Shown here: in pieces, positions 56,215 to 63,208 of the stretch | Layout of the letters: every line of letters starts with the position of its first letter | Numbering within the stretch: position 1 is the stretch's first letter | NCBI RefSeq assembly: GCF_019931145.1 | Contig: NZ_JAIOUV010000004.1 | Location: forward strand, 248,001 to 312,000 | Length of the DNA stretch: 64,000 bases | Source of the DNA: Marinicella meishanensis | GTDB lineage: Bacteria; Pseudomonadota; Gammaproteobacteria; Xanthomonadales; Marinicellaceae | Direction: 5' to 3' | The notes under the pieces: generated by a model | Told to the model about the DNA's origin: nothing | Databases searched by the model: none | What the model saw: only the letters and a program-made list of their open reading frames with translations | Made by a program: the position numbers and the translations under genes

Positions 56215-56637
56215 ATGAGCAAAGTCACCATCTTAAAACCCCAGGGCAATTACACCAACATCCCCTTTTATGCCGGCAAAGTATCGGCCGGATTTCCCGG
56301 GGTGGTGGAAGAATATTTGGAAGATTCGCTGAGCTTGGATCAACTGTTGATCAAAAACCGGGAAAGCACGTTTTTTGCCCGTGTCGAAGGCGACTCAATG
56401 ATTGGTGCCGGGGTGTTTCAAAACGACGTGCTGGTGATTGACCGGTCCTTGGTGGCGGCCGACAAAGACATCGTGGTGGCCTTGGTCAACAATGAATTCA
56501 CCGTCAAACGACTGTGCACCCGCAATGGCCTGAAACTGCAAGCCGAAAACCCCCATTACAGTGACATCGTCATCACCGGCGAGACCGAACTGGTGATTTG
56601 GGGTGTGGTCACTGGGGTGGCGCGGTCACTGAAATAA
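56215..56637 (+). CDS. UmuD-like S24 family peptidase
   Basis: This 140-residue protein has the LexA/UmuD fold: a possible self-cleavage site Ala25-Gly26 in SAGFPGVVEEYLE, the nucleophile Ser61 in EGDSMIGAG and Lys98 in FTVKRL, as in UmuD (Ser60/Lys97). Residue order and length match UmuD. No umuC follows; instead a pepsin-type protease gene starts 20 bp later, and I see no LexA box upstream. So the role may differ from SOS mutagenesis. Confidence 0.86.
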   Translation: MSKVTILKPQGNYTNIPFYAGKVSAGFPGVVEEYLEDSLSLDQLLIKNRESTFFARVEGDSMIGAGVFQNDVLVIDRSLVAADKDIVVALVNNEFTVKRLCTRNGLKLQAENPHYSDIVITGETELVIWGVVTGVARSLK

Positions 56638-56656
56638 CCCCTGAGCGCCAATCCCC

Positions 56657-57902
56657 GTGCCCAAGTCGGTCATCATTCCCATCACCAACGTCTATGCCAG
56701 AGGCGGCTACACCGCAACTGTCCAACATCGGCAGCCAAGGGGCCCAAGCCAACCTGATCCTCGATTCGGGTTCCAGCGCCCTGGTGATTCAAGGTGAAGA
56801 CTATCAGCCTGGCGAAGATGATTCCCTGACCACCACTTGTTTTGCCCAGAACCGCACCTATGGCATGGGTGGCTGGTTTGGTCCGGTGGTGAAAACCCGC
56901 ATCCATATGGGCCGTGGGCCATTCTCTGTCAGCTTGGAAGAAACCCATGTGGCGGTGACCCGCAAAGAACAGCAAAACAGTTTTGCCGAAGCCGATGGCA
57001 TCATGGGTTTGGCTTATTATGAATTGAATCGGGCCTATGATTTGACCGATTACCTGACCGACAACAACGTCAGCCCGGCCGCCACCTACCCCTGGTTTTT
57101 GGCGGACGAACAACAAGATGACACGGTGCGCGAGTTCAAAGGTTTTCTGAAAACCTACCCCAAATCATACCTCACCCCTTATTTTACTCAGCTGGAACAA
57201 CAGGGCGTGGTGGGCAACCAATTTGGCTTCGTGATTCACCGCTCCAGCATCTACCAAACCAGTCAACAACGCAGCCAGGAAGCGCTGCGCAAACACCCCT
57301 TGAATCGGGGCTTTTTTGTGCTGGGAAAACCGAAAATCCACACCAGCCTGTTCCAGGGTAAATTCAAAAAAGTGAAGGTGTTGGACGACAAATACCACAA
57401 CGTGCACGTGCGCTCCATGCGGGTGGGTAACAGCGAACCCATCGCCGCCCCAGAGTTGGATGAAGCTGACCGCAACCACCGCACCAACGGCATCATTGAC
57501 AGCGGTGCTTCATTCATCGTCTTGCCACAGCTGTTGTTCGATCATTTGCTCGAAGCGTTGATCAAAGTGAATGCCGATTGCGAGGCTTTGTTGGACCCAT
57601 ACCGGTCATTCACCGGGGTTGAAATGGGGGTGGATCTGGCGCAGATCGACTTGGCCGCATGGCCCAGCATCTACTTTGTGTTCGATGGGGCCGAGGAAGA
57701 CGAAGTTGAATTGGAATTGAAACCCAAAGATTATTGGCAAGTCCACGCCCCGGCACCCAATCAAGCGTCTTTTCAGTTCACGGTGTTGGCTGGCTGGCCC
57801 AATCAATGCATCTTGGGATTGCCGTTGATGGCCAGTTACTTCACCATTTTCGATCGGGCGGCCCAGCCCCATGGGGTGATTCAGTTTGCCGACAAGGCCT
57901 AA
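56657..57902 (+). CDS. Pepsin-family (A1) aspartic protease homologue, with one apparent extra base near the start
   Basis: About 414 residues once frame-corrected. Both A1 catalytic motifs are present: DSGSS (Asp36) and DSGAS (Asp281), the flap TYGMGG (Tyr68), DGIMGL, and the closing CILGLPLMASYFTIFDRA. Bacterial pepsins of this kind are known but rare (shewasin A type), and this one has no signal peptide, so cytoplasmic action is likely. From GTG 56657 the frame reads PKSVIIPITNVYARGGYTATV and then joins NIGSQGAQ only if one C is removed at 56722-56723. Otherwise the ORF starts at 56694 and lacks that beta strand. It follows the UmuD-like gene. Confidence 0.75.
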
Positions 57903-60260: not shown

Positions 60261-60364
60261 AACTTAATTGAAAACCACATTGGTCGATTCATTCATTAAA
60301 CCAATCCATGACCATGATTACCATAAAAAATATCTTTATGGCTGTATTTACATTACATATTTTG

Positions 60365-60393
60365 TTGACAAAGTTTTCAAACCTGCCTAACAT
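60365..60393 (+). promoter_or_regulatory. his operon promoter
   Basis: TTGACA (60365-60370), a 17-bp spacer and TAACAT (60388-60393) make a near-consensus sigma-70 promoter. Transcription would start at about 60400-60401, that is on or next to the first leader ATG. No other gene is in 60261-60364. Confidence 0.67.
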
Positions 60394-60400
60394 GCGAACC

Positions 60401-60466
60401 ATGAAAACCATTTTCGCCCATACCCATCACCATGCGTTGTCTGCAACGGGGTGGCTTGGTGCCTGA
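60401..60466 (+). CDS. hisL: His leader peptide 1
   Basis: 21 codons starting MKTIFAHTHHH contain four His codons in a run of five (positions 7, 9, 10 and 11), the mark of a his attenuator leader. The start is at or within one base of the predicted mRNA 5' end, so it may be a leaderless start with no ribosome site. The leader RNA's acgggg (60446-60451) can pair with ccccgt (60497-60502) as an antiterminator; otherwise the terminator at 60489 forms. Confidence 0.72.
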   Translation: MKTIFAHTHHHALSATGWLGA

Positions 60467-60488
60467 AGACTTTTCTCGATAAGAATTC

Positions 60489-60526
60489 AAAAAAAGCCCC
60501 GTGAATACCAACGGGGCTTTTTTTTT
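60489..60526 (+). terminator. Attenuator terminator 1
   Basis: aagccccgt (60494-60502) pairs with acggggctt (60511-60519) over a short loop (gaatacca), flanked by A7 and a T run of nine to 60526. The alternative upstream pairing by acgggg (60446-60451) would prevent it when ribosomes stall on leader 1 His codons. Confidence 0.82.
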
Positions 60527-60555
60527 GACTGAATGAAATCAACCACAGCGAATCA

Positions 60556-60624
60556 ATGAACAACATGACACAAGCAAACAACCACCATCATCACCCGACC
60601 GACACATCCGGACGGCGCTGCTGA
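60556..60624 (+). CDS. His leader peptide 2
   Basis: 22 codons from ATG 60556 (or 60565) reading MNNMTQANNHHHHPTDTSG and ending in RRC have four consecutive His codons (CAC CAT CAT CAC, 60583-60594). This resembles E. coli hisL more closely than leader 1 does (MT...HHHHP). No clear ribosome site. It lies after terminator 1 and before terminator 2, so it is a second attenuation unit in the same leader. Confidence 0.68.
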   Translation: MNNMTQANNHHHHPTDTSGRRC

Positions 60625-60645
60625 GATTCGCATTTAATTCACCAA

Positions 60646-60673
60646 GCCCCGTCAATAATACGGGGTTTTTTTT
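60646..60673 (+). terminator. Attenuator terminator 2
   Basis: ccccgt (60647-60652) pairs with acgggg (60660-60665) over a seven-base loop (caataat), followed by eight T. The preceding nine-base arm aagccccgt (60644-60652) is identical to that of terminator 1, so each attenuator's downstream arm could also pair across the two units. Confidence 0.78.
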
Positions 60674-60720
60674 GGCCAAAACAACGGCCTGAACCACACA
60701 ACAAAACACAGAGAAACGAC

Positions 60721-61569
60721 ATGAAAATAAAAATGGCCATCCCCAAAGGCAAACTGCAAGTGGAAATCCTCAGACTGTTGTCCGACATTGGCATCAACAT
60801 CATGGGCGATGAACGCAATTACCGCCCCAGTTGTTCGGATCCACGCTTTGAGATCAAATTACTCAAAGGACAAAACATCCCCTCCTTGGTGGAATTGGGT
60901 CAGCACGACATCGGTTTTGCCGGCATGGATTGGATCGCCGAGCAAGGGGCCCATGTGGAAATCATCAAACCGCTGGGCTTCAATCCGGTGGAAATCGTCG
61001 CCTGCATCCCAGAGGACTGGGATTATGCCGAACTGAAACAACGCAGGATCATTGTCGCCACCGAATACATGAATTTGGCCGAACAGTTCCTCGAAGACCA
61101 AGGCTTTGATGCCCAGTTGATCCGTTCCTATGGGGCCACCGAAGTGTTTCCGCCGGAAGACGCCGACATGGTGATTGACAACACCAGCACCGGCAGCACC
61201 ATCAAAGCCAACCGCTTGAAAATCTGCGATGTGGTGTACACCAGCGCCACCCAGTTTTTTGCCAACAAAGACGCCCTGCAAGACCCCGAGAAAAAAGCCG
61301 TGATCGACGACATGCTGTTGTTGATCAATGGCGTGATGAACGCCCGCCAACGGGTGTTGTTGGAAATGAACTGTCAGGATGTGGACATCGAAAAGATCGT
61401 CACCTTGCTGCCGGCCATGCGGGCACCGACGGTGAGTAAATTGTTCAACTCGGATGCCTATTCGGTGCGCGCAGCGATTCCCAAAGGCGCGGCCAAAGAC
61501 CTGATTCCCAAATTGAAACAAGCCGGTGCCACCGACATTCTGGAACTGCCGATCCGCAAAGTGGTGTGA
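60721..61569 (+). CDS. hisG: ATP phosphoribosyltransferase, long form
   Basis: This 282-residue cytoplasmic enzyme catalyses the first step of histidine synthesis. AIPKGKLQVEILRLLSDIGI, the PRPP-binding DADMVIDNTSTGSTIKAN, and a C-terminal regulatory domain (from about 215) are present, so it is the long, histidine-feedback-inhibited form (HisG_L). It has only a weak ribosome site after the double attenuator. First enzyme gene of the operon; hisC-HAD follows 4 bp later. Confidence 0.96.
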   Translation: MKIKMAIPKGKLQVEILRLLSDIGINIMGDERNYRPSCSDPRFEIKLLKGQNIPSLVELGQHDIGFAGMDWIAEQGAHVEIIKPLGFNPVEIVACIPEDWDYAELKQRRIIVATEYMNLAEQFLEDQGFDAQLIRSYGATEVFPPEDADMVIDNTSTGSTIKANRLKICDVVYTSATQFFANKDALQDPEKKAVIDDMLLLINGVMNARQRVLLEMNCQDVDIEKIVTLLPAMRAPTVSKLFNSDAYSVRAAIPKGAAKDLIPKLKQAGATDILELPIRKVV

Positions 61570-61573
61570 TGAC

Positions 61574-63208
61574 ATGACTGCCAAGACCCTCAAACTGGAT
61601 TTCAATGAACGGGCCGATTCCCAACCGGCCTGGCTGCAATCTTTTCAGTTGTCCGTCGATGATTTGTGGCGCTACCCCAACCGCCAGGCGTTGGAACAAC
61701 GCATCGCCACCGATATGGGCCTGTCGGCCGGTTCGGTGTTGTTGACCAATGGCGGCGATGAATCCATTGAACTGTTGTATAAAAACTGCAAACTCAAAGA
61801 TGAAGCCTTGTTGGTGCCTGAACCCTGTTTCAGCCAATACACCCACAACCAGCAGGTGTGGCAAAACCAAACCACATTCGTTCCAGCACGCGATGATTTG
61901 ACCATCGACACCGAGGGTTTGGCCGCCCAACTGCAAGCCAATCAGTGGCTGATCCTGACCCGGCCGAACAACCCCACTGGCGAATACCTGGCCGCCGAGG
62001 TGCTGGTCGATTTGATCCAGCGTGCGGCAGAACAAGGGGCTTGGGTGTTTTTGGACGAGGCTTACGTCGAGTTTGCCAATGAAGCCGAACCCATTGATTA
62101 CGCCGCCTTTGACAACCTGGTGACCCTGCGCACCTTTTCCAAAGCCTTCGGTCTGGCCGGCGCCCGCATTGGCTATTTGTTCGGTCAAGCAGCCATGATC
62201 GAACGGTTTCGCGCATTGGCCATGCCGTTCAACGTGTCGCGGGCCAACCTGCAATTGGCCGCCGCCGCTTGGCAAGCCCGCGATGAGATCACAGGCTACT
62301 GTCAAACCATAGCCGACAATCGGGCGCAGGTGGTGCGCCTGTTGCAAGACCACGGCATCCAACCCTGTCCCAGCCGGGGCAACTTTGTGCTGTTCGAAAC
62401 CAATCCAGCGCAAAAAACCTTGTTTTCGCGGGTGATGCAAAAACGGGGCATCCAAATCAAAACCGAATTGGGCGGCTTGCCCAACGCGGTGCGTTTGACC
62501 ATCCCTGAAAACATGGACCAGTTCGAGCAGGCCTTGCGCCTGATTCTCAAACCCGAACTGTTGGCCTTTGACATGGACGGGGTGTTGATTGACACCTCAC
62601 AAAGTTATGACCAATGCATCATCCAGACCGTGGCCCAACTGAGCGGACAAACCGTGACCCAGGGAGACATTGAACGCACCCGCGCCCAAGGCGGTTTCAA
62701 CAACGATTGGGTGTTGGCGGCTGAGTTGATTCAACAACAAGGCGTACAAGTCCCCTACCAACAGGTGGTGGACACATTCCAAGCCTTGTATCTGGGTGAT
62801 GCACAACAAATCGGGTTGGTTGCCCAGGAGCGGGACTTGTTGCAAAATCCTTTGAAACAAACGGTATTCAGTCCCGCCAACACCACCGCCATCGTCACCG
62901 GTCGGCCCCGGGCTGAAGCCGCACAAGGCGTCAAACAATTGGGCATTGAGCCAAACCACGTGATCAGTGCCGATGACGTGACGGCACAAAAGCCAGACCC
63001 TGAGGGTTTGCAACGGGTGATGCAACAAAGCGGTGCCAGCCGTGCCTGGTTTTGTGGCGACACCGTCGATGACATGCAAGCCGGCACCCAAGCCGGTTGT
63101 GTGTGCATTGGCATTGGTGCGCGCACCGCAGCCGAACAAGACAACTTATACCGAGCCGGGGCCGATGTGGTCCTGGAGCACATCAACCAATTGGAGTTTT
63201 TATTGTGA
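61574..63208 (+). CDS. hisC: Histidinol-phosphate aminotransferase fused to a HAD phosphatase
   Basis: This 544-residue protein has an N-terminal class I/II aminotransferase (residues 1-326; RPNNPTGEYL, DEAYVEF, PLP Lys190 in FSKAFGLAGARIG) that makes histidinol phosphate. The C-terminal HAD domain (about 328-544) has DMDGVLIDTS (Asp333, Asp335), IVTGRPRAEA and a final CGDTVDDMQAGTQAG. The HAD half is of the type seen fused to his enzymes elsewhere and is a good candidate for histidinol-phosphatase, because the following HisB has no phosphatase domain. hisD, usually between hisG and hisC, is missing here. Confidence 0.92.
   Translation: MTAKTLKLDFNERADSQPAWLQSFQLSVDDLWRYPNRQALEQRIATDMGLSAGSVLLTNGGDESIELLYKNCKLKDEALLVPEPCFSQYTHNQQVWQNQTTFVPARDDLTIDTEGLAAQLQANQWLILTRPNNPTGEYLAAEVLVDLIQRAAEQGAWVFLDEAYVEFANEAEPIDYAAFDNLVTLRTFSKAFGLAGARIGYLFGQAAMIERFRALAMPFNVSRANLQLAAAAWQARDEITGYCQTIADNRAQVVRLLQDHGIQPCPSRGNFVLFETNPAQKTLFSRVMQKRGIQIKTELGGLPNAVRLTIPENMDQFEQALRLILKPELLAFDMDGVLIDTSQSYDQCIIQTVAQLSGQTVTQGDIERTRAQGGFNNDWVLAAELIQQQGVQVPYQQVVDTFQALYLGDAQQIGLVAQERDLLQNPLKQTVFSPANTTAIVTGRPRAEAAQGVKQLGIEPNHVISADDVTAQKPDPEGLQRVMQQSGASRAWFCGDTVDDMQAGTQAGCVCIGIGARTAAEQDNLYRAGADVVLEHINQLEFLL

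Follow-up and report, generated by a model that had tools for sequence, protein, structure and literature searches.

Two predicted histidine attenuators in series ahead of hisG in Marinicella and Kangiella

Layout of the leader region

The window (the whole stretch of 64,000 nucleotides that was analysed; genome G000) carries in 5' to 3' order a promoter, a first leader with its putative antiterminator and terminator T1, a second leader with its putative antiterminator and terminator T2, and the hisG gene (Table 1). An earlier note on this DNA had described two His-rich leader peptides and two terminators before hisG, and a direct reading of the sequence agrees with it in both coordinates and counts. 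The start codon of leader 1 lies 7 nt after the -10 box, and by sequence each of the two units places an intrinsic terminator between its leader and hisG.

Table 1. Features of the leader region and the first gene of the operon in the window
Feature	Position	Strand	Description
Sigma-70-type promoter	60365..60393	+	-35 TTGACA at 60365-60370, 17 nt spacer, -10 TAACAT at 60388-60393
Leader peptide 1	60401..60466	+	MKTIFAHTHHHALSATGWLGA (then stop); 21 codons, 4 His in 5; predicted leaderless
Putative antiterminator arm 1	60446..60457	+	ACGGGGTGGCTT; partner is the 5' arm of T1
Terminator 1 with U-tract	60489..60526	+	core AAGCCCCGT...ACGGGGCTT; hairpin about 60489-60524
Leader peptide 2	60556..60624	+	MNNMTQANNHHHHPTDTSGRRC (then stop); 22 codons, 4 consecutive His; another in-frame ATG at 60565
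Putative antiterminator arm 2	60611..60619	+	GACGGCGCT; partner is the 5' arm of T2
Terminator 2 with U-tract	60644..60673	+	AAGCCCCGTC...ACGGGGTTTTTTTT; hairpin 60644-60668, U-tract to 60673
hisG, ATP phosphoribosyltransferase	60721..61569	+	PF01634 and PF08029; first gene of the operon presumably controlled

The classical his attenuator is that of hisL in Escherichia coli and Salmonella, and ribosome-mediated attenuation is taught as a matter of a single leader, a single terminator and one amino acid. The locus resembles hisL in having a leader ORF with His codons, an antiterminator arm behind these codons, an intrinsic terminator and hisG as the first gene, and it differs from hisL in that two complete units stand serially and that leader 1 is predicted to be leaderless.

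Downstream of hisG lies an aminotransferase gene (PF00155) fused to a HAD domain, followed by hisB (PF00475). By position, the aminotransferase is taken to be hisC and the gene after hisB to be hisH, whose frame is cut at the end of the window and has no Pfam match. The hisC-HAD hydrolase fusion (61526-63208) encodes 560 amino acids, and the part of the operon after hisG that lies in the window contains no hisD. Directly behind the U-tract of T2, a small hairpin GGCC-AAAACAAC-GGCC occupies positions 60674-60689; similar hairpins were seen by eye in several relatives, those of L040 and L041 showing the compensated form GGCT...AGCC. Inspection by eye of loci L046, L048, L049 and L050 also revealed that the T2 loop GTCGCCATTG has a complement of 8-10 nt, CAATGGCGAC, before hisG, which could lock the read-through RNA or influence hisG translation. 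Elsewhere in the window, a gene at 56598-57902 encodes a eukaryotic-type aspartyl protease domain (PF00026) in this bacterial host.

Occurrence in relatives

Taken alone, the window makes a weak case: a consensus scan gave 3 terminator-like sites where 1.2 ± 1.2 are expected and 2 promoter-like sites where 2.2 ± 1.4 are expected, and the antiterminator duplex compared with shuffled sequences reached p = 0.08 for unit 1 and p = 0.02 for unit 2. The layout recurs in 33 further loci (one truncated at the end of its contig), and it is this conservation that excludes chance, the statistics of the window itself being modest. An assembly artefact is unlikely because several named strains carry the pair, namely M. 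litoralis, M. sediminis, M. marina, M. pacifica, M. gelatinilytica and Kangiella aquimarina.

The genus-mates of the window genome belong to Marinicella (Marinicellaceae, Lysobacterales), with HisG identities of up to 90%. A hisG match was obtained in 17 of the 18 genomes of the genus (G000-G017), of which 12 carry both units and 5 a single one; unit 2 is accordingly kept in 11 of the 16 other genus genomes with hisG, as expected from the earlier note, which had let its reading depend on the presence of the second unit in close relatives. Nine leader regions were readable in the sister genus g3, two of them tandem, six single and one (L052) cut by the contig edge. The latter was counted as tandem, since the contig holds unit 2 and the end of a terminator while leader 1 would lie beyond the edge. 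Kangiella and its near kin have the tandem form in all 19 loci. Together with the window this gives 34 tandem loci in Marinicellaceae and Kangiella, and His runs are found in both leaders of all 33 complete ones.

Two His leaders were found in none of the 22 loci of the sister clade (Aliikangiella and others). The order of Kangiella includes 44 genomes with a distant, E. coli-type HisG; all 21 loci read among these have a single His leader, some of them with nested start codons. In the 11 single Marinicellaceae loci, the leader resembles by eye unit 1 of the relatives. The class-wide search with PF01634 concerned 148 of 185 genomes, and locus L064 was treated as G023. A second leader called automatically in L015 was rejected by eye as false, and further corrections by eye concerned L075, which has no ATG-started leader, and L125 and L128, which show only scattered HQTHRH. 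Tandem his attenuators may also exist outside the surveyed groups. The single his leaders of L075 and L076 end in RRQRR or VRRW and resemble unit 2 of Kangiella, so the tandem might stem from a fusion of two older leader types, a suggestion qualified by the long branches and unsure tree placement of these loci.

Promoter and translation starts

Promoter scores, built on frequency tables, exceeded the shuffled 95% level in 39 of the 44 regions upstream of unit 1. Only one of the 34 regions upstream of unit 2 (L035) did so, with about 1.7 expected; the scan thus gives no sign of a promoter between the units, in line with the single promoter of the earlier note. A reading with two promoters, each serving one attenuator under different conditions, could appeal to the TTGACT found in the window and in L035 (candidate score in L035, 9.8), which overlaps the end of the T1 U-tract. 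We consider this reading highly improbable: L035 is the one locus of 34 above the shuffled 95% level, the spacing of the unit-2 candidates to the start codon is scattered over the 34 loci, and the candidate in the window has a -10 box of GCGAAT and a score of 6.2, near the shuffle median of 5.9.

By score, 43 of 44 loci have their best -10 box 6-8 nt before the start of leader 1, and the 44th locus, L116, shows the same spacing by eye with a corrected start codon, without rescoring. Because the start codon follows the -10 box at this distance in 44 of 44 loci, leader 1 is probably leaderless, with the RNA 5' end at or adjoining the ATG. A gap of 6-8 nt occurs in none of the 21 E. coli-type his leaders; in 20 of them, the best promoter is found 25-50 nt upstream of the start codon. 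In the sister clade, the gap is 6-7 nt in 12 of the 15 loci scored (out of 22), several of these promoters scoring below the shuffled 95% level. A leaderless his leader may mark the whole Kangiella/Aliikangiella/Marinicella hisG clade, beyond the tandem loci.

Leader 2 starts with ATG in 33 of 34 loci and with GTG in one, and the nearest ATG is open and in frame in 33 of 34. The same holds for leader 1 in 44 of 44 loci, counting ATGs only from the chosen start onward. In the aligned Marinicella leaders (17 of unit 1 and 12 of unit 2), three consecutive His codons show no variation at their first two positions, and the third position varies among the 12 leader 2 sequences. Inspected by eye, the 12 nt before the start of leader 2 lack GAG, AGG and GGA in all 12 tandem loci of the genus, and such a Shine-Dalgarno-like motif is present in 14 of the 34 loci overall. 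Its conserved frame and His codons suggest that leader 2 may be translated, a point on which the earlier note had also let its reading depend; the missing Shine-Dalgarno motif in Marinicella speaks against it.

Predicted ribosome-dependent switch

The switch was modelled on the nascent RNA, folded just before the 3' arm of the terminator emerges and in different ribosome states. The Kangiella loci L071, L098, L100-L106, L108, L109 and L116 were left out of the folding and coevolution sets. The antiterminator duplex was significant against shuffles (p ≤ 0.05) in 51 of 57 units (32/35 for unit 1 and 19/22 for unit 2); unit 2 of L052 was among those that were not (p = 0.30). Median antiterminator occupancy was 0.95 with a stalled ribosome and 0.08 with a ribosome at the stop codon in unit 1 (n = 35), and 0.80 and 0.10, respectively, in unit 2 (n = 22); the corresponding values for the window were 0.98 vs 0.15 and 0.80 vs 0.24. 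The stalled and the stop state differed by at least 0.3 in 53 of the 57 units; the corresponding share was 26% among 1140 shuffled versions, and 11 of the 21 E. coli-type leaders reached this difference. The prediction for both units is thus that stalling promotes the antiterminator, whereas a ribosome that has reached the stop codon prevents its formation. Folding models and coevolution (see below) together point to mutually exclusive antiterminator and terminator structures, the former being blocked once the ribosome sits at the stop codon, except in unit 2 of L053 and L058, where the stop codon of leader 2 lies beyond the antiterminator and the model gives no block (0.99).

Equilibrium folding with masked ribosome footprints did not separate the states and was discarded as a test of the switch, as the complete terminator mostly wins (medians of 0.98-1.00 in most states, 21 loci); over the full transcript, terminator formation was lower in L039, L040 and L042. 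The predicted switch therefore rests on the co-transcriptional order of folding. When no ribosome was placed, antiterminator occupancy ranged from 0.02 to 1.00 across units, and for an untranslated unit 1 the model often gave read-through (median 0.41; 0.78 in the window), unlike in classical his control.

Coevolution of the arms and cross-talk between the units

Coevolution was assessed in 18 of 21 loci, leaving out the near copies L054, L058 and L059, by comparing the stability of each pair with that of pairs swapped between species. Own partners were favoured for antiterminator 1 with T1 (p = 0.008) and, most strongly of all pairs, for antiterminator 2 with T2 (0 of 5000 permutations), and the cross pairs showed no coevolution (p = 0.89 and 0.88). 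Antiterminator 2 preferred its own terminator in 17 of 18 loci and antiterminator 1 in 10 of 18. Within the 12 Marinicella loci, the signal for antiterminator 2 with T2 was still significant (0 of 5000), and that for antiterminator 1 with T1 was absent (p = 0.47).

Over 37 aligned units, pairing amounts to 94.6% for the central five base pairs of the antiterminator helix, three of which have changed on both sides, and the covariation of the helix (0.235) exceeds the shuffled mean of 0.151, with none of 500 shuffles as high and slid versions at 0.196 or below. The subgroup of the window has AACGG in unit 1 and GACGG in unit 2. In L044, antiterminator and terminator are both unlike those of the relatives and still match over 12 bp.

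The earlier note had also proposed that, through their shared arms, elements of one unit can pair with those of the other. As a designed pairing of the T1 3' arm with the T2 5' arm this did not hold and was rejected, the model giving a median occupancy of 0.00 in each of four ribosome states (21 loci; nascent-RNA model), with the exceptions of L044 (up to 0.43) and L065 (0.73). The likeness of the AAGCCCCG arms in T1 and T2 is more simply put down to a common terminator sequence combined with common descent.

The other cross pair, antiterminator 1 with T2, is predicted to be strong in seven loci. In the state with ribosome 1 stalled, ribosome 2 at the stop codon and T1 refolded (at least 0.99 in each of the seven), arm 1 occupies the T2 5' arm to 0.92-1.00 in all seven, namely the window and the six tandem loci most closely related to it, and in these the duplex of antiterminator 1 with T2 is more stable than that with T1 (window, -20.7 vs -15.3 kcal/mol). 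This would fit a relay in which the stalled ribosome 1 opens T1, T1 refolds behind the polymerase and arm 1 then exchanges to the T2 5' arm and opens T2, so that T2 would mainly catch leaks past T1 that occur with no ribosome stalled. Unit 2 would then be a proofreading gate against leaks, costless under starvation, and the two checks would use two initiation modes, a leaderless one at leader 1 and an internal, Shine-Dalgarno-poor one at leader 2. We regard such a relay as unlikely, since no coevolution supports the pairing of antiterminator 1 with T2, be it in the seven loci (p = 0.31), the 12 Marinicella loci (0.66) or all 18 (0.89). Moreover, L038, L041 and L061, which lack T2, have likewise retained AGTGCC at the end of the unit-1 segment. 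Outside Kangiella, the seven remaining tandem loci modelled gave occupancies of 0.22-0.63, and in Kangiella the exchange was absent in five of the seven loci modelled (0.00-0.03) and moderate in two (0.76 and 0.59), in a model that ignores timing.

Evolutionary history of the second unit

On a tree of 67 HisG proteins, from which the too short L064 is absent, the tandem label requires 6 changes compared with 22.5 in shuffles. Kangiella and Marinicellaceae are joined with a support of 91/69, and this grouping fits one gain and about five losses of unit 2. By sequence comparison, both units share a common ancestry across the tandem loci, and the tree suggests that unit 2 was already present in the ancestor shared by the Kangiella and Marinicella operons and has been kept from then on. 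Since genera g2 and g4 of the window's family have a different hisG (26-36% identity) and no His leader was found in their loci (L031-L034), the operon with its leader has probably moved between the Kangiella and Marinicella lineages.

The clearest loss is that of L041, in which unit 2 has been cleanly deleted between the two terminators and whose sister L040 keeps both units. The sequence behind the L041 terminator matches that behind T2 of L040 with a score of 25.5, against a maximum of 7.5 in 500 shuffles and a score of -1.5 for the sequence behind T1 of L040, and the loop of the L041 terminator resembles that of T1 of L040. This junction was obtained by local comparison, as MAFFT gave no alignment across the deletion; no clear junction was seen in L038, L061 and L043. 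The L041 junction indicates that the shared terminator arms can act as repeats that delete unit 2, which most lineages nonetheless retain.

Having been lost about five times, unit 2 appears dispensable. Along with the clean removal in L041, the unit-1-like leader kept by the single Marinicellaceae loci and the want of a Shine-Dalgarno motif before leader 2 in Marinicella, these losses are what one would expect if unit 2 were a decaying or inert duplicate and unit 1 the sole regulator. However, unit 2 is retained in 34 loci with its His runs and reading frame conserved, and the coevolution of antiterminator 2 with T2 is the strongest observed and extends to L044, so that an inert unit 2 seems quite improbable to us.

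Proposed mechanism and relation to known systems

The arrangement is very probably one of two complete, autonomous ribosome-mediated His attenuators in series on one transcript ahead of hisG, as judged from sequence and folding models. RNA polymerase would start at the single promoter, and translation of leader 1 would begin at a start codon that forms or adjoins the RNA 5' end. When charged His-tRNA is plentiful, the ribosome would reach the stop codon of leader 1 and cover arm 1, and T1 would form; should it be held up at the His codons, arm 1 would pair with the 5' arm of T1 and the polymerase would continue. A second ribosome would initiate internally at leader 2, where the same choice would be repeated at T2. 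The signal is presumably histidine. Transcripts leaking past T1 would be caught at T2, which would multiply repression; multiplied repression or a graded response, as the earlier note had envisaged, may be the benefit. The same His sensor thus appears to be used twice in series and to have been retained in Kangiella and Marinicella, so that histidine availability may be tested two times before the biosynthetic enzymes are made.

The nearest precedent is the Salmonella mgtCBR leader, whose tandem attenuators have ORFs that sense ATP and proline and stem-loops unlike intrinsic terminators (Lee and Groisman, 2012; PMC3641672). Two short ORFs and two attenuators share one leader RNA there, as is predicted for the locus studied here with its single promoter by scan. 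The signals differ between the two mgtCBR units, whereas here both units have His codons and intrinsic terminators. For tandem T-boxes and other riboswitches with the same ligand, a digital, pseudo-cooperative response is expected (PMC12452182). Like these, the two units would be independent sensors of one signal in series; the riboswitches treated in that source sense through their own aptamers, whereas here the sensors would be ribosomes on leader ORFs. A leaderless attenuator peptide, with the RNA beginning at its ATG, is described for trpL of Sinorhizobium meliloti (PMC7298713), which is a trp leader and, from that account, apparently a single one, whereas the leaderless unit predicted here is the first of two and is rich in His. 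The rimP-leader of several Gammaproteobacteria resembles the locus in having a second terminator in tandem and a potential antiterminator at the upstream one (PMC2965389); it is defined there by its terminators, the description of the motif mentioning no leader-peptide pair, whereas two leaders are present here. A double attenuator for one amino acid was not found in the open-access literature searched, which is weak evidence of absence.

Natural one-unit relatives exist beside two-unit ones, such as L041 beside L040, and their comparison could show what is gained from serial attenuation, be it a lower leak, a steeper response or the relay. With its probably leaderless leader 1, the locus also offers a natural system in Gammaproteobacteria in which attenuation would need leaderless initiation.

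RNA family searches

The Rfam family His_leader (RF00514) has no match in the window at the gathering score of 49 bits. Below this threshold, unit 1 of the window scores 28.5 bits and unit 1 of L053 27.9 bits; unit 2 gives no RF00514 match up to E = 10. No T-box RNA match was obtained in the window at the gathering score, nor up to E = 10 at 60300-60800. With a covariance model of one unit (R1; 37 of 54 units aligned), the two units of the window score 84.9 and 68.9 bits, and the best other genome reaches 38.8 bits among the matches listed from 368 genomes of the class (stricter filters, nine candidates per genome). Most weak R1 matches look like generic terminators, some covering the terminator end of the model only, and R1 therefore tells little about tandem his leaders whose sequence differs. 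Upstream of the Kangiella his leader in L053, on the opposite (minus) strand, positions 2335-2472 match the Rfam family TwoAYGGAY with 44.9 bits against a gathering score of 43 bits.
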